64,000 nucleotides of DNA from Tribonema minus (lineage: Eukaryota; Sar; Xanthophyceae; Tribonematales; Tribonemataceae). The translations under genes were made by a program, and so were the position numbers. The notes beneath the pieces were generated by a model. The model was given only the letters and a program-made list of their open reading frames with translations. It had not been told where the DNA came from and ran no database searches. Below are positions 13,735-61,093 of the stretch, in pieces. Location of the stretch: the NCBI GenBank assembly GCA_017506865.1, contig JAFCMP010000008.1, positions 1 through 64,000 of the forward strand, read 5' to 3'. Position 1 is the first letter of the stretch, and every line of letters starts with the position of its first letter.

Positions 13735-16700
13735 ATGCCCCCAAGGGCTATGTCAGGACTACCCTGGCTGCGCTTCAGAAGCAGCGTAGCGGCATGTCTA
13801 GCCGTGGCAGCCGTCCTGCACCTGGCACTGCTCTCTGAACACACAGCTCTGGCCTTCGCAAATCCCAGTGCTGGAGTGCCTTCAGGGCTTTTGGACCACC
13901 AGGCGCACAGGCAACATCAGCAGACGCTGCACAGACGGAGAAGAGGATCGGCTACGCTTTTTGACGGCGACGCGGAGGGTGCTGTTGTGAGGGAGCCTGG
14001 CGGTGGGCGGGGGAGCAGCAGCGAAGCAGGTGAATTTGGTTGTCAAGTATGCATGCACAGGGAGCTTGCTAGGGGTAGCAGCTCAGGTCCATATTCATAA
14101 CCAGAAGATGAATTACATCTCATTATGTGGTATCATCGCTGGGTCTTAATGGAGGCATGTATCCTCACACCATCAGGTTACCATATCCGCTGGCGGTGCA
14201 TCGTGTTGCGCAGGGCCAAGTAGACGAGTAGAAAATACACCTGCTGTGTAGCTCGGCTTTGATCATCACGGCTCGCCGTAATTGTGCAGCACCTGCGGCA
14301 GCATGTCGCCATCAACCGTTCATGCCGATGCGTCGCAGTGTCACCAGAAGCCGCAGCGCGTCGTTGCACGTCCTGCAACTCTTGCCCGGTGGCAGCGCAG
14401 CGGCAGCCGTTGCAGTGCCAGCAGCAGAATGGCGCCAGCACCGCAGCAGCAGCGCCGCACACTGCTGGCAGGTGCCCTGTCGGCGGTTCTGCTTTTTTTA
14501 GACGGCTCGATTGCACGCGCCAGACCCCCCTGAAATGTGAGCGCACTGTCTGCAGTTGGCGCGCAGAGGGCTGCAGGCGCTTACGTGCATCAGCCGTCTT
14601 GCGCTTCGGGTTAGGTTTAGGGTTGAGGTTAGGTTAAGGTTAGGGTTAGGAGTTAGGTCCGCCGTGAGAGTAGATCCTGAGGCTGAGGGCTAGAATGAGG
14701 GTTAGGGTTAGGTCAGGCACTTGAGTGCATCAGGCGGTATCTTTCATGTCAGCCATGAGAGTAGATCCTGAGGCTGAGGCTTAAGGCTGGGGCTAGGGTT
14801 AGGGTCAGGTTTAGATCATCAGGGCCTGCTCCACACTTCACATGTACTTTGCACTGAGTACATGCCTGCCATCGAACAGCTCCCAGTCAGGAGAAACTGT
14901 TGAGTCGCCGCTGCCCTGTCTCATGGCCTACATGAGCCATGATGACTGTCTGTGAGCAGGTCAACCAGCCTCTAAAAACTTCAAGTTGAAGTTGATGCAG
15001 CGGCATCAACAGGCTGTGGCTCAGGGAGCTAGGTACTGTTCTCACCGTCAGACAACCATGACACACGCTCCATGGCTAGTTTTTCTCTAGTCTCGTCGAC
15101 TTTCTCACAGGCTGCACGCTGAAGGTTCGTAGAAAGCGGAGGTGGCAGCTCAGCAGACGCGCAGGCGTGAATGTGAACAACTTCAATACTTTCAGTGCGA
15201 CTGTTGCTACTGTGGCCTGTTGTAGGTTGAGGGCATGTCACCATGCCAGTGATTTTTTTTCTATTGACTCCAGCAGCCTCGCAGCCTGCATGCACTGCCA
15301 TGGGCGGTTCGTGCTGGAAACGATGATCCTGCTTCTAAATTGAACTTTCCATACTTTCGCTTGAGGGGCGGAAACGCCTTCCAAATTGTACTGGCCTGCG
15401 CCAACAATAAGCGATGATCTGCTTCCTGATTATGCTGGCCAGGGACAATAATCAGCGGCGTTGCAAATGGCATGCATCGAACGCTCCGCGGCGCCCTCCA
15501 TCCAGTTTTTTTGTGTTCAGCGCGGATTGCCTGAACACGAAGAAGAAATGAAGAAAGTGGCGGTTTCCACTCAAGAATTGGGTGCGCGAACTTCATGTTT
15601 CTTGGGCGCCGCACCTCACTAATATCAACATCAATGCACACTTCAAGTCTTCAACAATATATCACATGCAGCTGCAAGCAGCAGCGAGCGGGCTGTGCAC
15701 GCACCTCGCCAACACCGTTTGAACTTCGCACTATGAGTCATACTCCAACAATAAACCACAGGCGCCGCCACATGCGGCAACGAACGGGCTTCAGCCTGCT
15801 GCGCATGGTCATGTTGGGCAGGTACTGATGTTGCGCAAACAGCGCTCCACAGCGCTTTCTCAAGCGCATCAGTCCTCATGCCTCAAATTACGTGCCTTTG
15901 TGTACTTCACCATTGAAGTTGCAGGCGCCGCCGCCGCCGCGACGCCGCGCAAGCGGCAGCGCGCGGGCTTCAGCCTGCTGCGTGGGTTGATGTTGAGCAG
16001 GTTGCCCCCACTGTGCATTGGCAGGCGCATCCCTCACGCATGCCACTCGCTGCCCCCATTTCATACTTCAACGTTGAAGTTACAGATGCCACCGTGACGC
16101 CGCGTAAGCGCCAGCGCGCGGGCTTCAGCCTGCTGCGCTGCGACGCGTACCACTGCGAGCGCGAGAGCGTGCGCGAGGGCAAGATCTCCTTCACAAATCC
16201 CGCGACGAACCAGGTCATGCTCGTCTGGGAGGAGCGTCCGCGGCGTGTTCTGGTACTTCTCAAGGTGACCCTCCTTCAGCCTAGCAGTAAAAAAAAAAGT
16301 GTGCTGGTACTTCTCAAGGTGACTCTCCTCAGGCTCAAAAACGCATGCTGGTACTTCTCAAGGTGACTGTCCTTCAGGCTTAGCAGTAAAATACGCATCG
16401 GTGCTTCTCAAGGTGACTTCCTTCAGGCTTAGCAGAACATATGCTGGTGCTTCTCAAGTTGACTCTTCCTCGGGCTGAGCAGCAAATACCTAATCACACA
16501 ACCTGTAGCTCTGGCGCCACATTGCTAAAGGCAACGCTCCGCTTGCATGCTGATGCTTGTGCAGGTCACGCCCTATCAGGTCGTACGGTGGAAGACTCCC
16601 TCGCCCATCACCCTCGCCCTCAACGCTGTTCCTGAGCTTGTCGATGTGACGCTCTACATGTGTCATTGCTCCGCGTGCGCGGGTGGGCACGCTCCTTCTG

Positions 16701-19700
16701 TGTCCGCCAGGCTTATGCTAACCCTAACCCCAACGACTGGCCCTAGCCGTAACGGCAGCGTGTCGCATGACCGTGCAAGCGCAGCCCCCGCACGCGATGT
16801 GAATCTGCATCCGCCACGTATGCACTGCTGTGTGGAGCGCTGCAGCCGCTTGTGGGATCTGCTGAGACCTGCTGTACGCTGAGACCACGCTTCGTGCCAC
16901 CGACTTTTTGCAACGAGAGATGAAGTTGGAAGTAGGAGGGGTACCGCTGACAGCAGCGAAAACGCACTGCTCACATACCCTGCTTGTTTTCATCCCTATA
17001 CCTACCCCGCCACAGCCTGAAGACGAGCTGCTGCTAACGGCGGCGCGCGCCATCGACTTCCTGCAACGAGAGATGAAGTTGGAAGTTGTAGTGGAGGAGG
17101 GATACCTGGCGCCGCTGACGGAGACGCTGGCGGCGCTGCGCGCGAGCTACCACGAGACGCCCGGGGCGTCAGCGGGCGCGCCGCAGCTGCCGCTGGAGGT
17201 CTTTGTACCGCCACATATGTCCAGGTAACATTGTGTTGGGGTTGCAGTTTACTTCATTGTTGAGGCAAAGTCTTGAAGTTCAGTGATGTAGACGCTCGCG
17301 GCGCTGTGCGCGAGCTACCACGAGACGCCGGGGGCGTCAGTGGGCGCGCCGCAGCTGCCGCTGGAGGTTTACGTGCCGCCGCACATGTGCAGGTGTGACA
17401 TCGTGGTTCCACTGTATCAGCGTATGACGTGCATTCAACCAAAAATTGTACTCTAGAAGTACTGGAGTTATGGGGTCAGGCCTTGAAGTTCAGTGATATA
17501 GACGCGTGCGAGACGCCCGGCGCATCCGCTGGCGCGCCGCAGCTGCCGCTGGAGGTCTTTGTAACACCACACATGTCCAGGTAACATTGTGTTGGGGTTG
17601 CAGTTTACTTCATTGTTGAGGCAAAGTCTTGAAGTTCAGTGATGTAGACGCTCGCGGCGCTGCGCGCGAGCTATCACGGGACGCCGGGCGCGTCAGCGGG
17701 GGCGCCGCAGCTGCCGCTGGAGGTCTTCGTGCCGCCGCACATGTCCAGGTGCGACATCGTTCTTCTACAGGAATAGGGCATGACGTAAATTAAGCCAAGG
17801 GGGTCACCTCATACCTCAAGTTTGAGGCTTGAAGTTCTGAGACGCTCGCGACGCTGCGCGCGAGCTACCACAAGACGCCGGGGGCGTCTGCGGGCGCGCT
17901 GCAGTTGCCGCTGGAGGTCTTTGTGCCGCCGCACATGTCCAGGTGCGATATCGTTCTTCTACAGGAATAGGGCATGACGATTCAATTCAACCTCTTGTCA
18001 CCTTTGTACTTCAATTTTGAAGGTAAAGTCTTGAAGTTCAGTTACGTAGACGCTCGCGAGACGCCAGGGGCGTCAGTGGTAGCGCCACAGCTGCCGCTGG
18101 AGGTCTTTGTGCCGCCGCACATGTCCAGGGAAAGTTATGGTTACGTTTGCATTTCACTTCAACTTTGAGGCTTTGAAGGTCAGTGGCGTAGACGCTCGCG
18201 GTGCTGTGCGCGAGCTATCACGAGACGCCAGGCGCGTCCGCGGGGCGCCGCAGCTGCTGCTGGAGGTCTTCGTTCCGCCGCATATGTCCAGGTGTGACAT
18301 CATTCCTCCAGTGGAGTATAGCATGGCGTAAATTCAGCCAGAAATTGCACAGTACTTCAATTTTTAGGTCAAGTCTTGAAGTTCAGTGACTTGGACGCTT
18401 GCGAGACGCCCGGGGCGTCAGCGGGTGCGCCGCAGCTGCCGCTGGAAGTCTTCGTTCCGCCGCACATGTCCAGGTGCGAGAAGTATTATCAATGCAGATG
18501 TGATGAGGTGTCTGCGCAGTCAGCATACTTCAAGTGTGCTGTTCAGTGCTACATCAGCGTTGACTGCGGCCACGGAGCAGGGGGGCGCAGGGGGCACGCC
18601 CGTGGTCCGGAGTTGAGTCGGCGTGGGCCAACAGGAAGTTGACGCCCTTGTGCGCTTGTTTGTGCACTCTCTACCTTACACAGATCGCAGTTCAGGCTAC
18701 TCCGACTTCAATATCAACCCAGAATTGCTTCAACTTCAAAAGGCAGCCACGGACCCGGCGCAAGGGGCACCCCCGTGGTCCGCAGCCGGCCAGCCGCGGA
18801 CCAAGGGGAAGTGGACGACAGTGTGGATCAGTCGTGACGCTCTCTACTGTACACATGCGCATTTCAAACTACCAAATCTTCAAACATTGCTTAAACTTGA
18901 ACTTACTCAATTTCAACTTCAACCGCAGCCACGGACCGGGCGCAGGGGGCACCCCCGTGGTGCGGAGCCGACCGGGCGCAGATGAAGGAGAGGTTGACGA
19001 CAGCGTTGATCTGGTGGTGACACTCGGCGGTGACGGCCTCATGATGCACTCGAGCACCCTGTTCCGGCAGGCCGTGCCCCCTCACCTGTGCTTCAACCTC
19101 GGCAGCATGGGGTTCCTGACGCCCTTCGACCTACAGAGCCTTAAGGATGACGTGAGTGACAACAATCAGTTTCTCGTGTGGTGGGTATGTATGTATTTTG
19201 TGACCTACAGAGCCTCAAGGATGACGTAAGTGACATGAGGTTTTTCCTCTCTTCGCCCTTTCACGTGGCATGTAGCTACCGTATTCACCCGTGGATAGTC
19301 CCCCCCCCCTGCGGTAATCACCGCTTGCTCCCGGGTTTCAGATGCAATATCGCGGGGGGGGGGGGGGCTATCAACAGGCGAGTACGGTATGTATGTATGT
19401 GTGTGTGACGGTGGCAGGGCGCGCTTCTGGCGAGCGCATCGGAGCCTGCGCTTGCTCAACCTGGGCAGTGTTATACTTCGAAGTACATGGGAGAATGTGG
19501 GCCATTCATAGGTATACCTCAGCAGTACGCATGCATATATGTATGCTTCAAAGCATAGGTAGATGCTGGTGCTGTGAACTTTGGAGCCTGGTGAGCTGTG
19601 AAAACAAAGCAGTCGTCCGTCTCGCAGTTTGCGCGCCGCAGTAGCTGCTCTGTGCCTGAAGTGCGCTCTTAGTAAGCCAGCGCAGTTGCGTTTGAAGGCG

Positions 19701-22700
19701 CTTTGCTCTGGTGGTGGACCTGTTGAAGCCCCAAATTCAACTGTAAGCTGCATCATGCAAGCGCCTCTCAGGAGCCCATGCAGCACCCCTACAACCATTA
19801 TGTATCTATGGCTTGAGCCCTGTATGGCTTGAGCCCTACAGCCTGCATCATCGACACACTGTGCCTGCTGCGCCTTTCAGATTCGGGGCGCGGTGGACGG
19901 CGCCGCGGTGAAGATCAGCCTGCGCATGCGCCTCAGCGCGAGGATCGTGCGAGCGGGCAAGGTGGGCATCTTCAAGTAGCAGCACTCAGCACCTGCATTC
20001 TCAGCACTTGCATCCTGTGTACCGGACAGAGGCCAGTCCCTTTCTGCCATGCACCCGTATTGGGCCATCACGTTCTTTTTAGAGCAGCACTGCTCAGGAG
20101 GTCAGCCTGCGCATGCCGCCGCGCGCGAGGAGCGTGCCAGCGGGCATGGCGAGCTCTCTCAGAGCAGCAGTGCTCAGAGCGGCGGCGCTCTGCTCTCGGT
20201 TGTAGATCATGTCTCAATATCTTGGTTTGGAGCAGCACTGCTCAGACACTCAGCATGCGCATGCCGGCAAGTGCTAGGCTCGTGCGAGCGGGCAATGCGA
20301 GTTCTCTCATAACAGCAGTGGTCAGGCCTGACAAGCGGCGGTTGCAGTGGCACAGCTCAGTCGCTTACGGCAGCACTGCTCAGTCATTTGCGGCACCAGT
20401 GCCACGTGCAGCGCGCCGCGTCCGTTTTAGAGCAGCAGTGATCAGCTCTCGGCTAGCGGCAGTTATGGCAGTTATAGAGGCGGTTGCAGAGGCAAGGCGC
20501 AGTCACTCACAGCAGCGGCGGTCGGCCACTCGCAGGGAGAACTGTGCCAGCAGCTTGTACAGTGGCAGCCCCTGCACTGGGCACTCCTCCGCTACTTCCG
20601 ACGACAGAGCCGTATGCAGTGCACTTTCTTGCAGAACAATACTGTCACAGCATGCAGTGTGATCACGCAATGCACCAGCTATAACACTCGCACGAAATCA
20701 TTTGATTTGTCAGCAAAACCACGAATCCCACCTGTGCTTTGTCTCCTCTCCTGTGCCCCCTTGCTTCAGCCGGGATGCACGTACCATGCGCTGAATGAGG
20801 TTGTGGTGGAAAGAGGGGGTAACCCCCACCTGTCCCTCATCGAGTGCTTCTGCGACGACCAGTTTCTTACAACCGTTCAGGTGAGCAGTCGGGGGGGAGG
20901 GGGGGGGCGTTTCTCACTGCCAAGCCAATCTCTCCCAGAAGTTTATGTGTGTGTGTGGGGGGGGGGGGTGCGTACTTCACTGCTCAGCCAATCTCTCCCC
21001 GATGTTCATGTGAGCAGCTCAGGGGGGGGGGGGAAGGGGGGGGTCTCACTGCCAGGCCAAATGGGGTGGCGGGCACCTTGGTAGCGCCGCTGCAATTCAG
21101 TGTGTGCTGCACATGAATTTTGTGGTTTGCTCACAATGTGGTTACAGAGTGCTCACACCACTGCACAATCTACACTGCAGTAGCACCGCTTTCCAACGTC
21201 CGCAATCGGCTTAGATGTTTCGCAGCTGCCAGTGCTCTCGGTACTGCCCTTGTGTTGAAGCCGGCGCCATGTTGGCAAGTCGAGCCAACAGCACCACGCA
21301 CACGCACCTTCTTAGTACGCATATATGCACGTTTGACCGCGCGCTTGCCTTGTTGCTGGTCACTGTCATCTCTGACGCAAGCAGACAATATGATGATACC
21401 CATGCACACTGTTACAATATGCGCATCACAACGGCATAAATATGCACATTTGTGGATATGAGCGTCTGCTGCTGATGAGATTCACCACCAGGGCAGGCGG
21501 AAGGTTTGATATTAACCACACACGCTGTCACCAACGCGCATATCACGACGTACTTGAATCAAGCAATTGAACGTGAACCTCCTGGCGCTAAACATCGTCA
21601 CCACCAGCGCAGACGGACGGTCTGATAATAGCCGCACCCACTGTTGCAACTTGCCACGCAATTCTTGCATCGGTTGATGTCAGCTCCTGCTGCTGATCGT
21701 CACCACCGCCAATGCAGGCGGGAGGTCTGATAACTATGATAGCCATGCCCCTTGTCACCCCTATTTCGGTGTGAACCCCTGCTGCCGATCATGCTCTCTG
21801 CCAATGCGGATGGTCCGATGATAGCCACACCCGCGCCCCTTGTCACCCCTATCTTCACTTAAACTCCTGCTGCTCACCGCCAACGCAGGCGGACGGTCTG
21901 ATAATAGCCACAACAATGATCATTGCCAGACATCTCGGGATTAATCTCCTGCTGTTGATTGTCATCACCGCCAACGCAGTCTGATGGGCTGATAATAGCC
22001 ACACCCACTGTTGATAGCCACACCCACGCTCCTTGTCACCCCTATTTTGACTTGAACTCCTGCTGCTTACCGCCAACGCAGGCTGACGGTTTGATAATAG
22101 CTACGCCCACTGGGTCTACTGCGTACAGCATGAGTGCCGGGGGGAGTATGGTACACCCTAGCGTGCCGGCGATCCTGTTTACGCCCATCTGTCCACACAG
22201 GTGATGCATACCTACATACCCATCTGTCTACAGTAGTGATACGTACACATGCCTGGCAGATACATGCATAATCTGTCCACACAGGTGATGCATGCATGCA
22301 CGGCGGCAGGTACATGTTCATATGTCAGCACAGGTAACGCATACATGCACCTGGTTAATCAATGCCCATCTGTCCACACAGGTGATGCATTCATACGCGT
22401 AACACGTACTTACCCATATGTCGACTTTAGGTGATGCATACGTACGAGCATATCGATGCCCATCTGTCCATGCCGGTGATGCGTACATGCGCGTAGCAGA
22501 TACGTACCCGTCTGTTCCGTGTACACACGCATTTGATAGACGCAAATGTCCATCTGTCTAAGTGGGGGGACGGCAAGTGTCAAGCCCGAAGCACGACGCA
22601 GTATGTGTCCCTCTTCGAGATCAAGCAGTGTTGTTTAACGGTGCCAATGAGAGAACTCAATCACCAAAGTACCCCCAATTGCATGTTTTCTGCACGTCAA

Positions 22701-25700
22701 TGCATGGATGTTGCTATTGGGCGAGATTTAAATCCCAACTCTAGATATTGCGTCACTGACGTGCGTCAAGTAGAGGCCAGCGTTCCATCCCAGGTTAGGG
22801 TAGGGGTTAGGGCACTGCTGCACAAGATCTGACTTCAGCCGGCAACATGGGCTTGCAGTCGTGTTGACGAGCATTGCCTTCTGCGCCTGCCCGCCGCGCG
22901 CGGTTTGACTTTCCGGCTGCTCATCTTCCCCAACAGCGCGTGATTCCTTATGGTCAGCATTAGCTGCCTCAGTCACGGTCAGCCTCAGACCGCTTGCACT
23001 GCGAGACAACACATCTGGCAGTCGTGCTGATGAGCACTGTCCCCTGCGCCCGCCGCGTGCGCGCAGCTTGAGTTTCCGGCCGCTCACCTTTCCTGTTGGC
23101 GTGGTTTTCCTTAGTGTTAGGGTTAGCTGCCTGAGTCTCATAGCGCGTGCACTGCTTCACAAAACATCGGCAGTATTGTTGCTGAGCACTGTCCCCTGTT
23201 CCCGCCCGCCGCGTGCGCGCAGCCTGAGTTTCCGGCCGCTCATCTTCCCCGACAGCGTGGTGTTCCGGTGCGACATACCGGAGGATGGCAGGGCGGAGGG
23301 CGTCGTCAGCTTTGACGGCAAGAACAGCCAGCCGTTGAAACATGGCGACGCGCTGGTGATAAAGGTGATGTGACGTTTTGCATCATCATCGTGCACATAA
23401 AATAGGATCTGCGCTGGTTACCAAGGTGATGTGAAATTTTTGAACATGATCATGCACAAGGAATTGAACCGCTGCTGTAACGGTACTGCGTGCTGTGTTC
23501 CATTCCCACTCTAAGAAGGTCTTTGACGGCAAGAACAGCCAGCCGTTGAAGCACGGCGACGCTCTGGTGATTAAGGTGATATAACGTTTACCATGATCAT
23601 GTACATAAGTAGGACCCGTTGCTGTAATACCCCTACCCCTAACCCCGACCCTTCCACGGCAAGAACAGCCAGCAGCTAGAACATGGCGGCGCACCTGTGA
23701 TCAAGGTAATGTGTTATGCAATACTATGTTATGAAACTGTTTGTTGCGCGCATTGTTCTCTTTGCGTCATGAGAATGGTGATGGCGGAAGGTAAGAGCGG
23801 CTGGAATCGTGCGCTTGGCAAGAACAGCCAGCCGCTGAAACATGGTGGCGTGCTGGTTATCAAGGTAATGTGACGTTACATGATCGTGCAACTTAATATG
23901 GCCCGCTGCTGTAACAGTACTGCGTGCTGTGTTCCGTTCCCATCCTGAGAAGGGCTTTGACGGCAAGAACAGCCAGTGAGTAAGGTGATGTGGCGTTTCT
24001 AAACATGATCATGCACATAATGTGATCCGCGCTGGTTAATAAGGTATGCTGTGACGTTTTCAAACATGATCATGTACATGAATATGCTCCGCTGCTGTTA
24101 TTACACTACCCCTAAATCTGACCCTTTCACGGCAAGAACAGCCAGCCGTTGAAGCATGGCGACGCGCTGGTGGTTAAGGTAATGAGTCATGCAATTTGTA
24201 TGTCATCAAACTCTTTACTGCGTGCGTTGTTCTCTTTCCGTGTCGAAAAGCGTGATGGTGGAAGGCACGAGCGGCTGGAATTGTGCTCTCGGCAAGAATA
24301 GCCAGCCGTTGAAACATGCGATGCGCTAACTACTACTGTGACGCGGCACTGAACATGGTCATAATCATGCACGTGAAGATGGCAAGCACAAAGCCAGCCG
24401 CTAATATATGTCAATAACCCTACCCTTAACCTAAACCTTACCCTACCGCTAACCCTAACCGATGCGCTGGTCATCAAGGTAATGTCGTGTGCGCCTCTCA
24501 GCAAGCATGCCGCCGGAAGTTCCGCTGAGTGTCGTGTTTTGTTTTGTTGCATCCTGGGATCGGTGATGGCGGAACGCAAGAGCGGCTGGAAGCGTGCGCT
24601 CGTGGTCACGGTGACATGACATACCACATCAATAAGCACGCTCCTGGGATATTACAATCAATGAAGGTACAGGAACAAGATCTGACTCAAGTGATGCGGG
24701 TCTGCAGAAGCAAGCTACTGGTGCCACGAGTTGTCAACGTACTGTGGCTCCGAGCCGCACAAAAACAAAACAACTGTAATTCCTTATGATGGCACCACGG
24801 CAATGTGTGACTGTCTATCAAGTGATTTTAAGCTTGGAGCGTTTCAGCGGTGCCCACATCATAAAGCACCTGAACCCTCAGTAACATCGAAGCACAATTT
24901 TCAACAACAACGTTTCAACAATCTAGCTCACTTCACAGGTAGCAAAAGGGTCAGTAGCTCAGTCATAGTGTCAGCAGCAGTTTCCACTGCAGTTGCGCAA
25001 GGGTGGCCTCGTAAACGGCATGCAGGGAGGCACTCTGCGCAAGGCTGTGTGTGCTGCTCGCAGCGAGATCACTGCACGGTAAGCTGGGCCCCAAGTGCGG
25101 TGCGCACGTCATTCACAGGCGCAAAAGGGCACGAGCAGTAGAAGTGGTACAGGCAGGGCCGATGGCTTGAGGCATGCCACAAAAGAAGCATACTACTGCG
25201 CACCGGCAACGACATTGCACTTCTCACCGAAGGCGAGCAAGCAGCTGCCGAACATGCCACAGTCGCGCGACCGAGCTTGTCGAAGAACCTAGGGTGACTG
25301 TGGCTAGCGCAGTGGTCAGACACGTTTTCTGCAACGGCGACACGCCGCCCTCCCTACACTGAGCAATAAAAGACAGCCGGCAGCGCCCCGCTGGTGACCT
25401 CGCGCTGACTGTCAAACTCAACGACGGACGCCCCGCCGGCTTGCGGACGCTGCACACGCAGATGTGCATTGTTATTTTGGGAGGTGCAACGGCTGTACAG
25501 GCGGCGGGGCGTCCGTCGCTGCATATGATGACTTGCGTAGCTCACCAGCAGGCGCTGCCGGTGCCGGTCGTCTTTCATTCCTCGGTGCGCGGAGGGGGCT
25601 GCGGCGGCGGCGCATTGCCGCTGCGGAACATACGCTCCGCCCGCTGCGCTAGCCACGCCAGCCCTGGGTTCTGCGACAAGCGCGTGTGGCATGTTGAGCG

Positions 25701-39918: not shown

Positions 39919-40712
39919 CTCGAGTCGAGGACTGAGTCACGGCAGCAGCTCCACCGCCGCTGCTGACCTCCACTGCGGCACGCGGCCTCTGCGTGTCCCT
40001 GCGCTTGAGTCACACCTGGGAGTCGTATTTCGGATTTTTTGACACACTTCAAGTCTAACTTCAAGTCGAACTCGAAGAACGAAATAGTATCAAACTGCCC
40101 CCGGCATGCAGCCACTCGATGCTCGCAGGATACTTGGCTAAGATCGTTATTGCCCACTGTCTGGTCGGTGCAGTGTCTGATGCAGCAGCTTTCAGCTTCA
40201 GTGCCAACGTATCAGGGTTCTATCTTTGCTGCCTAGGTGGGCAGCACTGTCCAGGTATGATAAATTATAATAATGATCTGTCTCAAAAGTAAACCGAAGC
40301 CCACCGTAATTCAAGCGGCTTGCATTTTGTTTACAATTTTGATCGTGAGGGCACTACATATGGTTGTGGCCACCTATTTATTTGGCACGATTTCAGCATG
40401 CACATACATGTGCAAATCATATCCCACAGAGCATCGGCGGTCGCACTCAAGTTCTCAAAAAGGCAATGTAAGGCAGCGTGACCTGAAAGCTCATGGCTCA
40501 AGTACAATGAGCACCCTTGGTGGCCGCTGGCTGCCAGTCGCTGGCGATCAACATCACACCATGCACATCATGAATGCCGCCGCTGTCGACCTGCACTGAT
40601 CGCGCTTCAAATGCCCCCTGTGCTCAGCCCCCAAGCTCAGCCCGCACCGCCACCCCCACCCCCCCCCCCCCGCCCCCTTTCCACAGCGCTCAAAAACTTG
40701 AAGCATCACACT
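39919..40712. promoter_or_regulatory. divergent intergenic/promoter region
   Basis: About 790 bp between head-to-head starts. It includes a run of TTCAAGT-type elements (40047-40075, cttcaagtctaacttcaagt) and a C-rich tract at 40648-40675 just before the GNAT start. Confidence 0.4.
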
Positions 40713-50800: not shown

Positions 50801-52264
50801 GTGGCGCCGCCGCTGCGTGCAGGGAGAAAAGGAGAACACGGTCGGATGCCAGCAATGAGATGTTTAGGGTGTATGGCGTGCAAAGTATATATTCATCTAT
50901 CTCGCGTGAAAAAATGGCACTGCTTGAAGTATGCTGTTTTGGCTACATAGCTTGCAGACTGATGGTGGTGGAGGAGCGGTAGGGGACGATGGTGGTGGCG
51001 CCGCCGCTGTTCGCAGAGAAAGAAAGGAAGGACAAGGTCGAATGACAACTCAGTAAGATGTTTTGGTTGCATGGCTTGAGAAGTGCATGAAGGAGCAATA
51101 GCGGACGACGGTCGTGGCGCCGCCGCTGCGTGCGGGAGGGAGACAGGAAGGACAGGGTCGAACAACAGCTGTGAGGTGTTTGGGTTGCATGGCGTGCAGG
51201 GTACACGCAGGAAGAGAAGAAGAATGTGGTCGGACGACAGCTATGAGGTATTGGGTTGCAGGGCTTGCGACTTTCGCGGAGACCTGTGCCACTGCTTGCA
51301 GGAAGGAAAGAAGAACATGGTCAAATGACAGCTATGAGATTTTGTGGGTAAATGACAGGCTGAGTACATGCAGATCTAATTTTCAAATAAAAAAATGGCA
51401 CCACTTGAACTAGGCTGTTTTGACTACAAAGCTTGCACACTGCAGGCTGCACTATCCAGAGTGGCTTGTGATCGACAACACTCCTGCAGAGTCGAGGTGG
51501 CAATGACGACGGGAGCGAGCAGAGACATGCGGAATCGCCAAACGCCTACAACAGAGTAACAGCTGCCTTGAGGCGCACATGCGAGAGCACGCAACAATGA
51601 CGCCAGTCCCATCAAATACTTGAACCACGTGAAACATGACACGATGTTGTCGCGTAGCTGCACGGACACGTGGCAAGCACGACTGCGTTTGTGCCACGAA
51701 CGAAGCTGCTCTGCGCCCACGACATAAGGCAGAATTGAACTAGTACAGAAAATTGTTTGAAAATCAAACCAGATAAACTACACCTGGCTGAGTCATCGGC
51801 AACATGATCACCGTGCTTGGCTTTATTCCGGAAAGATCGCCGAAGCAGCACACCTCAGCTGCGCACCAACAGCGAAACTGCGCAGTTACGGAAAAACGTG
51901 AACACGCAGTAAGGCTGTACACTCACCCGTATGAGCCTCCATATGAAGGTGCACTGTAAGATCGGCTGGGAGCGCTGTACGACCGTGTCGGCGCCGGGCT
52001 GCTGAAAGACCTTCCTCCGACGCGCCCTCCGCTGCGCGCCGCCTCCGCATCGTGCGGGCTACCCGCAAGGATGGCCATGGCTGCCGTAAAGGTCGCCAGA
52101 GCCTTGGTGAAGGAAGCAATCTGGGAGTTCTCAGCTTTCATCGAGAGTGCAGGCCGCAGCGACGATCTGGCATGAGCCTGTCTGGGTGTGAGTGCGCTGC
52201 TGGGTGCGAAGGCCTGCGCTGCCGCCATCAGCGCCAGGACGCATGCCACAGGCAGTAGCTTCAT
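44830..52264 (-). CDS. DUF1517-family plastid protein, seven exons
   Basis: Exons on minus: 52264-51927, 50812-50536, 48889-48776, 47944-47813, 47025-46927, 45798-45694 and 44964-44830; 1200 nt, 399 aa, phases all fit. DUF1517 proteins occur in cyanobacteria and plastids; their role is unclear, and they are thought to be thylakoid- or envelope-associated. The protein starts with a signal peptide whose end reads AQAFAPSS, a perfect ASAFAP-type tag. The family pattern follows in order: GGRVGGRSFSS and Ser/Tyr repeats; a Gly/Tyr-rich stretch and one membrane helix (LVNLLLVGGVVLTASQLL); VVKLQVALNAS; ERAETSSRGGL; ALVRRQPDWIASASQYEYF; ERTKVERETVSRF; AVVTIVLALKG; VLGVELLWTPEEPWESL. The exon 4 donor is GC (AAG|GCAAGT). 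It is divergent from the cyclophilin. Confidence 0.88.
44991..45120 (-). repeat. tandem duplicate and acceptor echoes at the last exon of the DUF1517 gene
   Basis: gtcagttgatga(t/c)ctgcatgcaatg is repeated twice at 44991-45043, and the acceptor region (gcgtc(g/a)cccgc(a)acctg(c/t)gagcgc) recurs at about 45090-45115. Confidence 0.8.
45140..45296 (-). repeat. dispersed repeat family A, copy 2
   Basis: Inverted relative to 11013-11165 and about 85 percent alike by eye; it lies in the last intron of the DUF1517 gene. Confidence 0.85.
46005..46215 (-). repeat. acceptor-side echoes of DUF1517 exon 6
   Basis: Copies of the exon 6 start with acceptor (plus-strand form acaatggtgac(g)accgc(a/c)tgtaacgacac) near 46020, 46090 and 46185. 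A donor-side echo of the exon's end lies near 45575-45600. Confidence 0.85.
46848..46890 (+). repeat. dispersed repeat family A, fragment
   Basis: ccactccttgtcacctagagctctacgatc... matches the end of the family A repeat. Confidence 0.8.
47500..47740 (-). repeat. donor-side echoes of DUF1517 exon 4, GC donor conserved
   Basis: On minus, the end of exon 4 (gcgattgcggagcgcaccaa g|gcaagttc) recurs near 47725-47700 and 47560-47520. Both copies keep the unusual GCAAGT donor. Confidence 0.9.
47945..48160 (-). repeat. acceptor-side echoes of DUF1517 exon 4, about 85-bp tandem
   Basis: gacgcaccagc(g/a)ccaggca(c/t)acctgca(c/t)gatgcaag repeats at about 47925, 48018 and 48110 with linked ggcgacgcaccat(t/c)catgagcatagtac blocks. 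Confidence 0.9.
48329..48382 (+). repeat. perfect 27-bp tandem pair
   Basis: aacacgctatgggcgagtgc plus gtcactg occurs twice in a row in intron 3 of the DUF1517 gene. Confidence 0.9.
49020..49165 (-). repeat. acceptor-side echoes of DUF1517 exon 3
   Basis: gagtgccacctgaaaacggtg followed by aattcaacaa(c/g)gaggagg recurs near 49030 and 49130 (true acceptor 48890). A donor-side echo of the exon 3 end (gctcacctcgctgacggcag) is at about 48630. Confidence 0.9.
50207..50500 (-). repeat. donor-side echoes of DUF1517 exon 2
   Basis: cactgacctgcaacttcacc, acgccgacgcccct recurs at about 50450-50490 and 50240-50275, with shorter pieces at 50207 and 50430, beyond the true donor at 50535. Confidence 0.9.
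50975..51130 (-). repeat. acceptor-side echoes of DUF1517 exon 2
   Basis: ggggacgatggtggtggcgc plus cgccgctg(c)g recurs near 50983-51015 and 51098-51128, upstream (in gene sense) of the real exon. Confidence 0.9.
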
Positions 52265-52523: not shown

Positions 52524-55500
52524 ATGGCAATAGCGAACTGCCTACTGGTCGCCGTTGCCTGCTGCCTGGCGGGTGGCACGCACGGCTTTGTCTCCGCGCC
52601 AGCGGCTGCGCGAATCGCTCAAGTGGCGAGACCTGCTGTTGGCGAGCGATGCGACGGCAGCGAGGCGCCCGCGGGACTGATGCTGCAGACCAAGGGCGCA
52701 ATATGCTCCATTTTGGCTGCTGCAGCGCTGACGCTGTCACCGCTGGCCAGTTTTGCTTTGCCTCAAAAGCCTCCCGAGAGCAATGCACAGGTGCGCAAAT
52801 GCTCAAGAAATTTTCCGTTCTTACTTCACAAGTTCAACTTTTCCAAGGCTGCATTATCTGGTGTGCGATTAGCGGCAGTTGACAAAGTGTGTGGCTTGCA
52901 CACAATTATGATCCTACTCATGACTGCAACAGCTCATCAACGGCATCTCTTGCTCTTACTGCAGATCATGCAATACAGGCACTTTTTGCCATGTCGATCT
53001 GTCATGCGCCTCCCCTTTAGCTGTTGCTAGTCATGCATGCTGTTGTTGTTGCAGCGTTTGCGCCCACTGCAATGCCGCAGCACTGCTGTGGCTAGCACTG
53101 CCCTGGTGATAGCTTTCAGCTTCATATAAGTAGCCTATGATACAGCCAGTTTGCGTCGTCGCATGACAGTTTTTCGTGACCCCTGTCTGTCAGGTGATTC
53201 TGCTGGAGGCATTGCCGCAGTCTCAAACGGCTGCAATCCAGGCGCTGGGGGCAGAGCTGGGCAAGATGACATCAGAGGGCTCCGGCAACAGTGAGTTGTG
53301 GGCTGTCGCTGCAGCGTGCACTGCGCTTTGCATGGCAACTTCAACTTGCAAGCCTGATTACAGGTGGTTCCGGCTTTCGCATTTGAGGCAAAAAGCTTGT
53401 GCATACTGGGCAGAGTAGCCGCCCTTGTCTGAGTGCTAGAACACTACATGATTTTCATTGTTGGACTTGTGCAGATCAGACCATCAGGTCCCTTAAGTGG
53501 TGCACTTTTTGCGCGTAAATCGCACCAATGGGCACTGCTGGTCAGCTTTCAGCGTTGACAAATGTCAGCTTTCAATTCGCTTAGGAGCACTTGCTCGCAA
53601 GCCACGACACCACCTGCTGTCTTGCGCAGCTTGTCCTGTTCTCTGAGGCTAGCAGTTGAATACTGCAGCTACTGCAAGTCCCACTTGCCGGTTGCGCCAG
53701 TATAAATTTGGCTCATGCAATGCCACTCGGACTTCCCTATTCAACCAGCATCCCAACTCACTGGCATTCCTCGTGTCTGCATTGTGCACTCTGTGCGCTT
53801 TCATCGCGCCATCGCAACGGCAGTCCGGTCCGTGGATGCCAAGGGATTCAAGGGGGTGCGCAGCTGGGACACAGTGCTCAAACAGGTGCAGTGCACACAG
53901 ATGCAATCATGACATGGACATGCTCCAAAAGATTGTAGAGCTCTAGGTGACAAGGGGTGGTTAGCCGCCATCAATAACCGTGGCCGCCGCTGCGGCAGTC
54001 ATTGGCCACGAGTCACACAGTGCCACCATATCCACAGAAGTCGTAGATACTTATGTGTGCAAGCTTTTAGCGTTCGAGGCATGGGTGATCTGTATGGAAA
54101 GGTCTCACGTGTTTGGTAGGCCAGCTCCAGGCGGCAGCCCAACACAGGAGGTGCAGCAGCTGATGGTATGTCGTATGTAGTAATGCTTGCCATGACGGTA
54201 GATGAATACGGTTGTCGTGCGAATCAAGGGGTGTGCAGATCTTGGACAAGAAGCAGGCGCAGTATTCGGTCACTAGTTCAACAAGATACGGCATGCTGTT
54301 TTGTTTACCAGTGCGCCACTGAGTGCGGTATAATCTTTGTGCATGCATGAGCACTGCTCACGTTGCAACACACTCGTGGCCACCAGGCAGTGCTCAGCTG
54401 TGTGTTGAGCATCCTGCAGGAACGAGTTGTAGCTTGCCTACCGCACACCAATGGCACCCGCACCCATCTTGGCAAACATACATACTGGTCTCCCTGGAGG
54501 CCCTTATGATTAGTTACGACTACCTAGTTCAACTTCATGAACACTTTTCAAATAAACTCTCAATTTTCATTTCTGCTCTTTTGAAGGAACGGGCAGTGGA
54601 TGGTCTGCTGGGCACAAAGGAGGGGGAGATCCTGGCGAGCGCGGGGGCGGGTTAGAGTTTGGCACAAAGACTGGTCGCCTGGCCCCCCTTGCGGCCTTTA
54701 CTGCTACAAGTCCACGAGTGCAGCCTCAATACCATCAAGAAAATAATCAAAGCTGTGTTTTGATTTGCTCTTTCTGCAGGAACGGGCAGTGGATGGTCTG
54801 CTGGGCATGAAGGAGGGGGAGATCCTGGCGAGCGTGGGGGCGGGGAACCAGGCACAGGCAAAGAAGCTGCTGGAGGGCATCAGGGCAGACATTGCTGCCA
54901 TTGATGCGGCAGCGAAGAAGGAGAGTCGCCCGGCCGTGGTGGAGGCGCAGGTTGCAGCCTTGAGCAAGGTGAGACAACTCACAACCTACTCTACATGAAG
55001 TTAATACTTGAAGTTGACCTTTCCACTTGAATGTATGACGGAGAGTCGCCCAGCTGTGGTGGGGGCGCAGGAGCAGCGCTCAGCAAGGTGATATGAATCA
55101 CTCACACTTCTTGAAGTTCACTTCTGGTACTTTTATACTTCAAGTAGTGTAAATAGTTGGAGTACAGAGGCAATATTTGTGGCGCTGCAGCCGGCGAGCG
55201 CGCTGTGCTCCTGGGCAAACGCTCGACGCAACAGGGTGTGAGGGCAGATTACTTACTTTAAATTGAAGTTAAGTAGATCCTCACAGGCGCGACAGGGTGG
55301 CGGCAGTGCTCGCCAGGCACGGGGACAATCAAAGACAAGGCGATTCATCATCGCTATGCTTCAGAGAACCGTACCTTGCTTGAATGTTCCGGCAGCCTGG
55401 TAATGTATCTAAATACCCCGTTTCTTCGCAGAACACACAGACAAGCGCTTGATGCCATTCTCTGAGCAGGAGAGTGGGCCTGACCCAATCCTAACCATAT

Positions 55501-58500
55501 TCTGCTATGAAGAGCAGCGCTCAACACCAGGCGGCAGTGCTCAACAACACCAAGGTGACAGCACTCTCAGTGGGAGTGGTGGGGCAAGGCAGCTGCCGCC
55601 TGCGCCCAAATCTTGCGCACCTGTGTTAGGCATGATGATCCTGTGTGTAAGGGTGTTTATGTAGTAGAAGTATACTTGGAAGTATATACATACCTGCCGT
55701 GATGCAAGGAAGTCTATGCGACGTGCACACAGTGGCCTATGACGATGGGATGGAAGCAACAGCGTCGATTCTCGCAATGCTCGTTCTGGGACCTTGCGCT
55801 CCGCGCGTTCACTGTATGCGTGCATGGTGAAGGGGGCAGTGATCTGATCTCTATTTGGCCTTTGCAAACGTGCCTTCTTACCCACGTCATTGGTAGTTTC
55901 AGCAAGTCAATCGCGCTGCGGTGGCTGCATCTGGCGCTGCTCGATCGTGCGGGTGGAGCAGCTAGGGTCAGGGTTGTGAACCACAGTCAGCCAATGTCCA
56001 ATCCTTCTACAGTCGTTGCAAATGCGGTTCATCACCCTACACCATTGGTAGTTCAATCACTTCACAGGAAAGTCAATGTTGGCTGATGTGTGCTGCGCGG
56101 CGGTGGCTGCATCTGGCGTCAGGTTGGCGCTGCTTAGACGTGCGGGCGGGCCGGCTAGCGTGTGGGTCAGCATCGTCTGATGTTTGTTGAGACTAAGCCT
56201 GTGCACTTGCGGGTTGTGAGCCATGCCATTGGCAGTTCGACCGCTTCACAAGCATGTCCATTTTGGCGGCTATTGCGTGCGGCGTGGCGGTGCAGGTGGA
56301 CCGCCTGGGGGTGATGATGCTCAGAGGCAAGGCGCCATTGGTAATTCGACAACTTCACAAGCATGAATACGGTGGCTGATGTGTGCTGTTCCGGCAGTGC
56401 AGGTGGACCGTCTGGGGGTGATGATGCTCAAAGGCAAGGCGCCATTAGTAAATCGACAACTTTACCACAAGCATGAATTTTTTGATTGATGTGTGCTCTG
56501 TGGCGGTGCAGGTGGACCGCCTGGGGGTGATGATGCTCAAAGGCAAGGCGCCGTTTGCGGTCCCCGAAGACGAGGCCCCGGGGGTACCCAGGCTGTACGG
56601 GAGGGGGTACGCAGAGATTACCGTCAAGGTGCGCTCATTCTCCTTTGCTGAAACATTATTTAGCAAGCGAGTTGTGCGCTGCTTGACGCATGGTGTCATA
56701 GATATATAATGGGGTACAGGTTTGTGCTTGATAGAATACTACAGTAGCTACCAGAAATCACCGTCAAGGTGCGCACAGTTCGATCTGCTGGCGCATTGTT
56801 GTCGCCAGGGAGCACGTGAGCACCGTAGAAGCGATGCCGAACAGTGTGAACACCCCCGTCGGCATTTCAATTGCGCTTCAACTCTTCCGACGTGGCCCGG
56901 CTTATGAAGTTGCACGACGGTGAGGGTTTGGGTCAGGGTTAGGGTTAGGATGGCGACGCCACGAATGCAGCATGTATACATGAGTTCTCTCTTGGCCACC
57001 CACGTTATGTGATGTTCAGAGTCTGGGCAGATAACTCCTCACCCAGCGACAAAATGATAAGTCATCTTCATTCACTGTTCAGGCGGCACAGGGTAGCGTA
57101 TGCTCAGTCTAGCCCCCAAGTGGAGAGCCAGCTCCCATTGACATTTGCTGACATCCTCACTTGGCAACATCATCACGTGATGTTGCACCTCCGGGCGGCA
57201 AAAGGCGGCACGCCAGCATCATGAAGGCTACGCTCAACAGCGCAAACACTGCCATCGGCATTTGGGTCATACCTACCGTAACTCTGCAGACCAGGCCCAA
57301 AGTCACCCGCGGCTGTCATGGCAAATCACGCCAGATGCATGCACGCTCACTTACATCCCTTGGCACTGTAATGTACTACGTGATGTCGAATCTCAGGCGG
57401 CCAAAGGCGGGCGTGTGGGTATCATGAAGGCTACATTGGATGGCGTTAACGCACCAGTCAGCGTCGGGAACTTTGCGGATCTCGCAAAGCGCGGTTTCTA
57501 CGATGGCACGCCAGTCAGCTTCTCGGATGAGAGCACGGTCATGATGGGGTTGCCCGCGGGCAAGGCGGTGAGTCACTGTTTGAAGGTTGTTTCCGAATGT
57601 TGTTTTCAAGCTTCACGGAAGAGAGCACGGTCATGATGGGGGTGCCCGCGGGCAAGACGGTGAGTCACCGCTTGCAGTTTGCTTGCGAACTTCAGTACTG
57701 GATGCAATGCAGTTGGACGCACCGCTGGCACTGTGCAGTGCTAATTATGAGCCAAGTCAGTGCTGCTGACGATGGGCATATTTTGGTGCCTGCGCACAAG
57801 TTCACTTCGATGGCTTCCGGACAGCTCGTGTCATTTCTGATGTGTGCACGCCATTCGTTATTAACCAGCAGAGCGTCGCAATTTGGAGCTGGGATGGGGG
57901 TCAGGGTTAGGGCTAGTGTAAGTCTGGGTTTCCAGAGCGTTGCTGTATACTGTCAGAGTTAGACGCAAAGGAGACCGAAGCACAGAAGGCTGATACCCGA
58001 TCGCGCATTGGGAAAAGTCTACCGGCAGGTGTGTGCAACTGCCGTGACTGTCAGCATGCAACGGCAAATGAGCACTTGAGTGCCATCACGCTTCAACAGA
58101 ATTTCCGCGACGTTGCGCAGAGCGCAGCACTGACAACGGTACTGCAATGACGGCAATGCGCATGTGGCTGCCACCGGTACTGCAATGACGGCAATGCGCA
58201 TGTGGCTGCCACCGTGCTTCGACAAAGAGCGATGGCGTCATTCCTACTGACCCTTGATATTGCGTCAACCGGCGCTGCCTGTGCCGTAGGGGTTCGAGGC
58301 AAACGGCGCCGTGCGGCGCGTGCCTCTGGAGATCCGCGCAGAGGGCGACAGCGACATCTCCTATGAGGAGTCGCTGGAGGAGCAGGGGCGCTTCAAGGCC
58401 AAGCCCGTGCTGCCATTCAGGTGCGTCACTTCTTGAACAATTGCTTGTTTTCACGTTCACGTAGTGATACTGTACTTTCTGAATGGCCCAATGTGTGGGG

Positions 58501-61093
58501 GCGCTTCAAGGCCAAGCCCGTGCTGCCATTCAGGTGCGTCACCTCTTCAACAAGCGTTTATTCTTCTTGAGCAAGAGTTCATCTTCACCGAGAGGTGCTA
58601 GAATCTGAATGACCTAATGTGTACGGGGGGGCTGAACGCCAAGGTGGCGCGCATGGTTCGGAATGGCGCCATGTACAGGGGTGCTACAAGGCCAAGCCCG
58701 TGCTGCCCTTCAGGTGCGTCACTTCTTGTAGGTGCGCTTCAAGGCCAAGTACGTGCTGCCCTTCAGGTGCGTCACGTGTTGAACAATTGCGCATCTTGGC
58801 TGTGCTGGGTTCTGAATGACCTAATGGCAGGAAGAGGTCAAAGGCCAAGCCTGTGCTGCCCTTCAGGTGCGTTGCCTGTTGAATCAGTGCTCATCTTTAT
58901 GGAGTTCTAGGTTGCGAGTGGCACCATTGATGAGCAGGGAGCTCCAACGCCGAGTCAATGCTGCATCACTTAGGTGCTCATCAAAATGGAATGCTAGGTT
59001 CTGAAGGACTCCATGTGCAGGCACGCTTCTAAGGTCAAGTCCTTCTGTCCCTTGAGCTGTGTGCCTTGCTCAGCCTCGTGTGACATGTGCTGCGCTCAGG
59101 AGCGTTTTGCATCTGCTGCTTGACTCGCTTCGTTGTGATTTTGGCGCATGTACTTAAACTGCCTCCAAATCAGTTTTCTTACATCAAGCTTTCAAGAGGT
59201 GAATGGCTACACAAGCGGCCCAATCCATGACGTGAAGTCTGTGCTGCCTTCAGCCAAAAACTTTGATCATGCATGCATATGCTTCTTGCAATCGGGCCTT
59301 GGCCTAGGCAAACCCTGATACTAACCTCATCGATTGACCACCAGCCACCGGCAGGCAGGCTGTCCCAACGTCAACCCTTGATGCCATTCAGATAGCTGCA
59401 CAATGCTGCTGCTTGTGTACGCTAAATCACTGGCCTCCTTAAGAATTTAAGAGAGAGGAACGCACCCTGGTGAAGACTACGTATTTAGAGTCATACCCAG
59501 ATACCGCAATACGTACCGCAATGAGGTGTACGCACTTCCATGAGGGAGACATAGTCTGATGTGGAGTATGTACCCAGTTTCAACGAGGGTATGCCCCACC
59601 TCGGTGAGGCTTACGGACCCTGATATCATGTTATGCGACGGTTTGCATTCAAAAAAGCATGATGCAGCTGCGATCCACCACGATCTTCCATGCTGCAATG
59701 CAAGAAGAGGCCTTGAGGCTCGACGTGCTGTAACTGCTCTGTAACTGCTCTGTAACTGCTCACCGCCTCCAGCCATACCAGAACCGACTGTCTCGGCGCA
59801 ACACGACACGATGCGACACTGTTGATAAGCGTCACTATACTTTGTGTGACAGCAATACGGCTGTAAAGAGCCCGAGTTGCCAGCTCCTCAACCAGAAAGC
59901 TCAGCATTTCTGACCTTGAGCTTTTCCTGCTGTCAGCTCCATTCTCAATGCATCGACCCCTACTCCATCAACTTCAACTCCAGTTTCCTGCAGCACAACA
60001 TTTTTTTCCATGACGTGAGTGCACAAACGCAGCACCCGCTAATTATTTTTGTTATGATTTCTGTGCCATCGCAGCGCCTATGGTACCCTGGCCTACAACC
60101 ACCCCCCTGACAACAGCAACGGCGCCAGCAGCCAGGTAATAGCCTGCCTTCGTGTTCAACAGCATCCCTGTGGGGTAATTCGTGAAAAACGCGAATGTGT
60201 GACACACTGCTTGATGGATGATGCACTGCGAGCATTGAAGAAAATATTACTCCAGAAGTATACCTTTACCTTGATTATCCAGGGGCACCTGCGAGGCTTG
60301 AAGTGGACGCAACGCTCGCTCACTGGCAGAGTGTGTGATACCGTCGCACCAATGGCACTCAAGCATGACAGCGGCCACAAGCCCTTCACCCTATACCCTT
60401 GTATTGTAGCTAGCACTGCTTTGTGCGCAAAACCGGTTGCGGCGAATCAGGGACTGGTATTTCCAGCCATGCTTGATGCACAACTCCTCAATTTTTGTTT
60501 GACCTGCCACCAAAGGTCACCCACCCTGTTTTGCAACAGCAACTATGCAACATCTGCGTGTCATTTACAGCACTTGTGCACGGTCACCTCACTCAAAGGC
60601 AGCACTCGTGTGCTCCTGCTATAGTGTACTTCAAGAAGTACTACTAACATGCTTTATACTTTTGCACCAAACGCCGCCATCTGGTACTGACCGAGACGCC
60701 GAGGACAGTCTTCAAGTGCATGCTGCTGTTGCCTAGGGATAGGGCTGTACCCTATACAGTAGGTTATAACCCTAACCTTAACACGAACTGACCACCCACA
60801 CAAAACATACTCACACGCGGCGTCCAGTGGCCTGCACTTGGTTGCCCAAGTGTACTTCACTCACTGCGCCCCCCCCCCCGCCCCCCGCCCACCCCCCCTC
60901 ATATTTGCACGCGCCGCAGTTCTGGGCGCTCAAGTTCGACCCCAGCTACACGCCCGCAGGGCTCAACACCTTAGACGGCGCCTACACCGTCTTTGGTTAC
61001 GTAATTGAGGGGGCAGATCTGCTTGATGACTTGGACGTTGGGGATCAGATCGTCAGCGTCAAGATTGTTGATTCGCTTGAGCTGAAGCCCTGA
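52524..61093 (+). CDS. CYP38: CYP38/TLP40-like thylakoid-lumen cyclophilin, nine exons
   Basis: Exons: 52524-52790, 53194-53290, 53824-53885, 54780-54968, 56512-56628, 57397-57567, 58290-58420, 60075-60135 and 60920-61093; 1269 nt, 422 aa, all phases fit. The N-terminus has a signal peptide (LLVAVACCLAGGTHGF), then a transit stretch, then a second hydrophobic segment ending SPLASFALP, as for lumenal proteins. Residues 90-200 form a helical N-terminal domain (DGLLGMKEGEILASV, KKLLEGIRADIAAID); then LKGKAPFAVPEDEAPGVPRL; then the cyclophilin barrel (KATLDGVNAPVSVGNFADL, RGFYDGTPV, LPFSAYGTLAYN, NGASSQFWAL, DGAYTVFGYVIEGADLLDDL). As in plant CYP38, the usual catalytic Arg and QGGD-type residues are missing, so it is probably a photosystem II assembly factor, not an active isomerase. 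Confidence 0.92.
53930..54060 (-). repeat. dispersed repeat family A, copy 3
   Basis: agagctctaggtgacaagg, aataaccgtggccgccgct, gtcattggccacgagtc and ccaccatatccacag match the 11 kb and 45 kb copies; it lies in cyclophilin intron 3. Confidence 0.85.
54580..54655 (+). repeat. acceptor-side echo of cyclophilin exon 4
   Basis: gaacgggcagtggatggtct and the next 50 bases repeat the exon 4 start about 195 bp upstream. A donor-side echo (gagagtcgcccagctgtggt to cagcaag|gtga) lies at 55037-55090. Confidence 0.9.
56275..56460 (+). repeat. acceptor-side echoes of cyclophilin exon 5
   Basis: gtgcaggtggaccg(c/t)ctggg, ggtgatgatgctca(a/g)a(g)gcaaggcgcc recurs at about 56290 and 56398, about 110 bp apart, before the true exon at 56512. 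A donor echo (aaatcaccgtcaag|gtgcgc) is at 56755. Confidence 0.95.
57180..57260 (+). repeat. acceptor-side echo of cyclophilin exon 6
   Basis: gggcggcaaaaggcggc, atcatgaaggctac and following bases mirror the exon 6 start (57397). A donor-side echo of the exon end (gagagcacggtcatgatggg to gcaagacg|gtgag) is at 57612-57662. Confidence 0.9.
58138..58213 (+). repeat. perfect 38-bp tandem pair
   Basis: Two identical 38-bp units (ggtactgcaatgacggcaat...) in cyclophilin intron 6, probably recent. Confidence 0.95.
58495..59060 (+). repeat. donor-side echoes of cyclophilin exon 7
   Basis: cttcaaggccaagcccgtgc, tgcc(a/c)ttcag|gtgcgtcac recurs at about 58505, 58685, 58738 and 58838, then decays (58945, 59030). 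The donor consensus is intact in four copies. Confidence 0.95.

Follow-up and report, generated by a model that had tools for sequence, protein, structure and literature searches.

In Tribonema minus (Xanthophyceae), exon edges, splice site included, have been repeatedly copied into the adjoining intron, and this was confirmed beyond the stretch in which it had been noticed. We scored a copy, or echo, where a 40-mer centred on a junction found at least 26/40 matches within 3 kb, a criterion that favours copies holding the junction itself. By this measure, 72/211 junctions in 15 genes (34%) had a junction-spanning copy, with 25/46 for the three genes modelled in the window, i.e., the whole 64-kb stretch analysed, which is the start of contig C8 in an assembly of 158 Mb and 554 contigs. 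Acceptors had an upstream copy at 31/105 junctions and a downstream copy at 0/105 (54 copies, all upstream), and donors had a downstream copy at 41/106 and an upstream copy at 0/106 (73 copies, all downstream), giving 127 copies in total. A first-pass annotation of this DNA had described the copies as same-strand, strictly polar, private to each exon and junction-spanning, and this proved right, with polarity ratios of 54:0 and 73:0 over 211 junctions. Its claim that nearly every junction is affected was overstated, as the share of junctions with echoes ran from 0/12 and 0/14 (SHMT2 and GAP4) up to 9/12 (DUF1517). Inverted copies were nearly absent (1/199 junctions), no copies were seen at 34 NADK and cyclophilin junctions in a distant control offset by 10–13 kb, and none of 243 in-gene copy pairs from 14 genes straddled an exon. 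Whole-exon copies numbered zero among 124 exon-linked pairs of at least 70% identity, with 11 weaker pairs unclassed.

These counts rest on gene models built with a purpose-written spliced protein-to-DNA aligner. Three genes were rebuilt in the window (NADK, 10 exons; cyclophilin, 9; DUF1517, 7), where the first-pass annotation had drawn on five. The cyclophilin and DUF1517 models were built on published T. minus proteins: the DUF1517 model is identical to NCBI JKP88DRAFT_230236 (P0241) at 399/399 residues, and the cyclophilin model contains all 370 residues of JKP88DRAFT_271193 (P0121). NADK was modelled on P0001, a protein from a transcript assembly that matches the window gene at 398/410 residues over exons 1–7; because P0001 deviates at exon 2 and ends after exon 7, exon 2 was given its start (16086) and exon 10 its end by hand. 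The end of P0001 (..TPICPHR) coincides with the read-through point into NADK intron 7 (window 22200), which suggests intron retention or an early end. Twelve further genes were chosen by name, not by echoes: the E. coli proteins SHMT, GAPDH and enolase served as queries against the genome, and all loci returned (4, 5 and 3 genes, respectively) were modelled in the same way. In the 14-gene set, 17/216 junctions with a doubtful model were removed before counting, which left 199, and DUF1517 added 12 to reach 211 junctions in 15 genes. Twelve of the 15 are housekeeping enzymes, and families within one gene are not independent. The window genes and their echoes, listed at 25/40 matches or better, are as follows.

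13735..28390, + strand: NADK gene, 10 exons (spliced alignment; Pfam NAD_kinase)
13735-14029, 16086-16264, 17016-17224, 18929-19151, 19881-19961, + strand: NADK exons 1–5
20770-20880, 22082-22200, 23223-23364, 27273-27352, 28248-28390, + strand: NADK exons 6–10
15905..15945, + strand: NADK exon 2 acceptor echo, junction-equivalent 15925 (26/40)
16299..16479, + strand: NADK exon 2 donor echoes, at 16319, 16363, 16413 and 16459
17362..18495, + strand: NADK exon 3 donor echoes, seven, all seven listed (BLAST)
18727..18767, + strand: NADK exon 4 acceptor echo at 18747 (28/40)
19206..19246, + strand: NADK exon 4 donor echo at 19226 (31/40)
20990..21030, + strand: possible NADK exon 6 donor echo, doubtful, in G-rich sequence (26/40)
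21477..22000, + strand: NADK exon 7 acceptor echoes, five (one at 25/40)
22265..22496, + strand: NADK exon 7 donor echoes, four
22884..23087, + strand: NADK exon 8 acceptor echoes, two, at 22904 and 23067 (30 and 39 of 40)
23406..24499, + strand: NADK exon 8 donor echoes, six (one at 25/40)
44833..52264, - strand: DUF1517 gene, 7 exons, exon 4 with a GC donor (399/399 residues as in JKP88DRAFT_230236)
52264-51927, 50812-50536, 48889-48776, 47944-47813, - strand: DUF1517 exons 1–4
47025-46927, 45798-45694, 44964-44833, - strand: DUF1517 exons 5–7
50986..51145, - strand: DUF1517 exon 2 acceptor echoes, two
50222..50476, - strand: DUF1517 exon 2 donor echoes, two (one 39/40)
49020..49157, - strand: DUF1517 exon 3 acceptor echoes, two
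48612..48652, - strand: DUF1517 exon 3 donor echo (35/40)
48019..48152, - strand: DUF1517 exon 4 acceptor echoes, two
47511..47728, - strand: DUF1517 exon 4 donor echoes, two, GC donor kept in both
46014..46212, - strand: DUF1517 exon 6 acceptor echoes, two
45573..45613, - strand: DUF1517 exon 6 donor echo (28/40)
45076..45116, - strand: DUF1517 exon 7 acceptor echo (29/40)
52524..61093 (stop included), + strand: plastid-type cyclophilin gene, 9 exons (spliced alignment; contains all of JKP88DRAFT_271193)
52524-52790, 53194-53290, 53824-53885, 54780-54968, 56512-56628, + strand: cyclophilin exons 1–5
57397-57567, 58290-58420, 60075-60135, 60920-61093, + strand: cyclophilin exons 6–9
54400..54607, + strand: cyclophilin exon 4 acceptor echoes, two (54420, weak, and 54587)
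56276..56423, + strand: cyclophilin exon 5 acceptor echoes, two (also detected as a tandem array)
56749..56789, + strand: cyclophilin exon 5 donor echo (28/40)
57174..57214, + strand: cyclophilin exon 6 acceptor echo, weak (26/40)
57640..57680, + strand: cyclophilin exon 6 donor echo (34/40)
58514..58887, + strand: cyclophilin exon 7 donor echoes, four

The seven downstream donor copies first noted at NADK exon 3, and the two at DUF1517 exon 4 that keep the GC donor, were all recovered, and the four echoes at cyclophilin exon 7 agree with the four to six proposed. At 25/40 or better, NADK exon 7 yielded five acceptor and four donor copies where six and six had been given, and NADK exon 8 six donor copies where eight had been. 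Likely GC-AG introns with GCAAGT donors occur in GAP3, ENO1, ENO2 and ENO3 (L008, L011-L015), as well as in DUF1517 (window 47812). As to the suggestion that echo arrays make up much of the intron length, exon-linked repeats covered 19.8% of 98.8 kb of intron and intron-only families 2.2%. Echo-bearing introns were longer, with a median of 983 bp (n=49) versus 629 bp (n=59) for introns without echoes. The suggestion that similarity falls with distance survived as a weak trend (rho -0.18, P=0.05), but the trend was negative in only 8/13 arrays; the nearest copy was the better one at 19/29 junctions, yet its mean identity was lower (0.80 versus 0.87).

Local repeats abound in this genome, where BLAST gave 360 direct and 14 inverted pairs over 314 kb, so the choice of null model matters. 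Uniform local tandem duplication across introns could leave an apparent excess at exon edges if copies there stay recognisable longer, the exon copy being frozen by selection, and both the abundance of direct repeats and an exon-side divergence about half that on the intron side (10% versus 18%, 77 copies with both sides aligned) are as this explanation expects. When uniform duplication was simulated with slow decay of the exon copy, 10–25% of families were exon-linked over nine settings, in a model that has no indels or turnover and counts events, not families. When overlapping pairs were linked into families, however, 73/91 touched an exon (80%) and 18 were intron-only, and without chained linking there were 71 exon edges versus 26 intron-only families (73% exon-linked). 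Junctions thus carried more copies than randomly placed intron positions, the comparison on which the first-pass annotation had staked its reading. Of the pairs with at least 90% identity and at least 40 bp, 24 lay at exon edges (21 different edges) and 2 involved no exon in the 98.8 kb of intron. Relaxing identity to 80% raised the pairs without an exon to 44, more than the 24 exon-edge pairs at 90%, which would favour a uniform process; only 8 of the 44 lay in intron-only families, however, and the other 36 joined echo to echo in exon-linked families, an argument that rests on the family linking. Most intronic copies were themselves exon-linked (86/108 pairs without an exon). An early reading of no junction targeting, prompted by the even spread of downstream copies through introns, was dropped after families had been grouped and the uniform simulation had failed. 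Together, these results show junction specificity, and with exon identity not tracked by the identity of the intron flank and a duplicated spacer often absent, uniform duplication is already disfavoured and in our judgement very unlikely. The preference for exon edges may arise because exons are break-prone, because splice sites are targeted or because splice-site copies are favoured. Exon GC was 62.5%, against a figure of about 53%.

We then turned to the shape of the copied block. In young pairs (at least 90% identity, n=31), the exon part had a median of 40 bp and the intron part a median of 8 nt, and a young block comprised about 25–60 bp of exon with about 8–16 nt of intron; 25/31 spanned the junction, and 6/31 lay inside the exon and ended before it. 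In the 127-copy set, the median intron part was about 10–16 nt regardless of exon identity. Beyond about +8, the intron flank was 0.70–0.73 identical versus 0.58–0.65 for shuffled sequence, with no rise with exon identity, and stood at 0.73 versus 0.65 where the exon part was at least 97% identical (n=15); that the flanks slightly exceed shuffled sequence indicates that some copies carry more intron. Only 3/72 nearest copies were contiguous, with at most 10 bp between them and their source. A permissive homology extension had put this figure at 24/63, but it hit chance similarity and was replaced by the stricter measures. Of 78 close pairs, 9 had a spacer below 20 bp, and the spacer of the other 69 was duplicated in 33 and not in 36. 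The 33 duplicated spacers imply that part of the arrays is ordinary array growth, and to that extent the first description of local tandem duplications stands; many copies nevertheless hold the edge without the neighbouring intron. With contiguity rare, 36/69 spacers unrepeated and flank identity independent of exon identity, plain tandem duplication as the sole process was dropped.

The sequence between copies was examined as well. The 34 spacers shared almost nothing with each other, and four of five echo fillers searched in the genome were single-copy in 158 Mb, so that no element sequence is common to many introns and the copies, as first proposed, are not introners. A mobile element or integrase aimed at exon edges, leaving a long target duplication of 30–90 bp with the fillers as its bodies, would nevertheless account for inserts flanked by direct repeats with one end near the splice site. 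Moreover, the fifth filler, at a GAPDH echo, holds a dispersed 58-bp repeat with at least 39 other genomic matches at 87–95% (at least 40 scored matches among 418 candidates), and the motif ACTTCAA/TTGAAGT, often near-palindromic and present 75 times in the window, reached 3.0 per kb in echo spans of 14 genes versus 1.0 in other intron and 0.3 in exons. Set against the unshared spacers and the four single-copy fillers, these points leave such an element improbable. The motif was also considered as a candidate breakpoint signature; it is denser in echo spans, but its distance to the copies is not fixed.

We also asked how echoes and exons have diverged. Raw mismatches numbered 262/1445 at third codon positions versus 95/1448 and 98/1445 at the others, an excess that looked like coding selection on functional copies; polarised counts assign most of it to the exon side, and functional coding copies were dropped. 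At 29 junctions with at least two copies, 25/27 changes assigned to the exon were at third positions, while changes private to one echo were 47/858, 53/851 and 74/852 at codon positions 1, 2 and 3, a milder third-position excess (odds ratio 1.5, P=0.01). Indels in the exon parts of echoes broke the frame in 14 of 17 cases and kept it in 3. Exon parts of echoes changed less than intron parts (174/2561, 6.8%, versus 187/1876, 10.0%), and this, with the third-position excess, means that neutrality is not strict. Echoes thus behave almost like neutral sequence, and exons like coding sequence. An origin as mutually exclusive or alternative exons was set aside on the lack of whole-exon copies and the near-even spread of private echo changes over codon positions. 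Given the 25/27 exon-assigned changes at third positions, echoes appear to hold ancestral exon states within the same gene, a built-in outgroup.

The same data bear on whether copying is low and uniform and splice-site copies are retained as spare or decoy sites that aid exon definition or splicing regulation. The splice dinucleotides were retained in copies at GT 60/68, GC 5/5 and AG 49/54, slightly above neighbouring positions, and the slightly slower change of echo exon parts points the same way. Conversely, echo changes are close to even over codon positions, frame-breaking indels predominate, 6/31 young copies lack the junction, and 2/15 genes have no echoes at all, and we consider retention as spare sites unlikely.

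Two loci offer snapshots of the process. At L006:1759-2122, a 190-bp piece that is 100% identical to contig C201 sits between two identical 87-bp copies, and the joins have 1–2 bp overlaps that are, by eye, possible signs of end-joining. Repair-mediated duplication by proximal capture calls for a donor within 5 kb as well as such signs; our copies were sought within 3 kb, and possible signs were noted at L006 alone. The L006 event is a captured-DNA insertion with a long flanking duplication; it lies outside the modelled genes, its position at an exon edge not being established. Inserts flanked by a direct target duplication, as expected of a staggered break, were thus found both here and in the young pairs. 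In SHMT4, it is an echo and not exon 2 that precedes the flank found after exon 2 in the paralogue SHMT3; from the sequences compared, this would fit either an insertion in SHMT4 or the loss of a unit in SHMT3 by exchange between copies. The exons of the two paralogues are near 90% identical, and in their introns hardly anything aligns beyond copies linked to exons and a 300-bp echo array present in both; with so little else aligning, introns seem to turn over fast.

That shared array also bears on assembly artefact. Repeats are hard to assemble, and we judged the arrays from the assembly itself. However, the units are short, with unique spacers on either side in many cases, one array is common to two diverged paralogues, and the start of exon 2 in P0001, an independent transcript protein, resembles over 12 residues the upstream window echo at 15925 and not the window exon (DATVTPRK) (by eye); an artefact is scarcely credible. 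The P0001 start itself fits an older exon state kept in the echo, or exchange between copies.

Our preferred explanation, which we hold with reserve as slightly more apt to be wrong than right, is that exon echoes are decaying edge copies from recurrent small break-repair insertions straddling the exon edge. A staggered break would place its cuts 25–60 nt into the exon and about 8–16 nt into the intron; fill-in and rejoining of both overhangs, often around captured filler, would leave an exon edge, then the filler, a second exon edge and the old intron. At donors, the working site would stay with the first copy, and all that follows would become intron, while at acceptors the working site would stay with the last copy. 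Polar copies would result whenever the duplicated segment runs across one exon-intron boundary, because in-exon insertions and whole-exon doublings would damage the protein and be removed by selection, leaving polarity absolute. Repetition of the event, with slippage or unequal exchange between copies, would then build arrays that decay. By analogy with known repair (PMC8355091, PMC4202315, PMC2671141), fill-in with captured filler would yield the right block length and form. Break repair alone does not account for exon edges being hit so much more often than intron interiors, however, and plain fill-in would not yield the 6/31 young blocks that end inside the exon.

Block limits that correspond on both sides to exon plus splice consensus could instead reflect RNA-templated repair, in which pre-mRNA fragments covered by the splicing machinery, each an exon edge with about 10 nt of intron, serve as templates at nearby breaks, and the nearly exclusive sense orientation of the copies agrees with this. 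Such templating would leave the absence of copies across the exon (0/243 pairs) unaccounted for and requires reverse transcription, of which there is no independent sign here; we regard it as quite improbable. A wider turnover of T. minus introns is a possible though doubtful reading, in which an exon-edge-directed process keeps adding sequence at the splice junction, the old copy is pushed outward and deletion clears the interior, as on a treadmill. If this were true, introns would be renewed from their ends, and each exon would be accompanied by a dated succession of its earlier sequences.

Searches of the open-access literature yielded no earlier description of exon-edge arrays. Several known systems are related. 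New introns in Daphnia (PMC4202315) are described as insertions flanked by direct repeats of exon ends and attributed to staggered double-strand breaks; 55/90 have internal repeats, and repeated bouts are thought to enlarge introns. The repeats reported there are 4–12 bp, whereas in T. minus the junction blocks are mostly 30–90 bp and form arrays with as many as seven copies. Break repair has likewise been invoked for short duplications that lie close together and contain filler (PMC2671141, 2009), although in that account they have a median of 147 bp, lie about 1.2 kb apart on average, are distributed fairly uniformly and include a copied exon in the opposite orientation, while those of T. 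minus are about 50 bp, mostly 100–300 bp apart, on the sense strand and at exon edges. Fill-in of staggered 3' overhangs of about 43–50 nt gives small duplications of similar length (Schimmel et al. 2021, PMC8355091), but these copies lie in tandem and arose where breaks had been induced in cells of mouse and human, and a preference for exon edges is absent from the description given. Introners (PMC9860276, where we met no mention of Tribonema) are insertions that also shape introns, some with 3–9 bp target duplications; as characterised in that source they share element sequence between genes, whereas the T. minus copies are private to each exon. Repeats at exon-intron borders have been taken as insertion scars (Rogers and Bendich 2025, PMC11782384), where, as presented, a pair of 4–30 bp joins the two borders of an intron, while in T. 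minus one border is copied inside the intron. Finally, in intron gain by tandem genomic duplication (PMC4974935, PMC2891723), duplicated exon sequence also becomes intronic, but as described a new intron is created, whereas in T. minus existing junctions are copied repeatedly.

Exon echoes may point to a little-known route of intron growth, and they bear on how introns lengthen and renew. About one in three of the junctions studied carries marked, datable scars of this growth, which makes its rates, its polarity and the reason for the edge preference measurable. With many intact competing donors and acceptors, T. minus also provides a natural test of how the spliceosome chooses its sites.

Several other features were noted in the window, in which Rfam gave no match at gathering scores. 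The dispersed repeat of about 58 bp occurs at 11113 (+), 45131 (-), 46843 (+) and 53910 (-). GGGTTA telomere-like repeats lie within NADK intron 1 (14608-14657). An ankyrin match in a reading frame at 7912-9012 (-) overlies an 81-bp tandem array, weak acetyltransferase (GNAT) matches fall in a reading frame at 40482-41477 (+), and a hAT-family transposase C-terminal domain (Dimer_Tnp_hAT, E 4e-10) lies at 36411-37646 (+).
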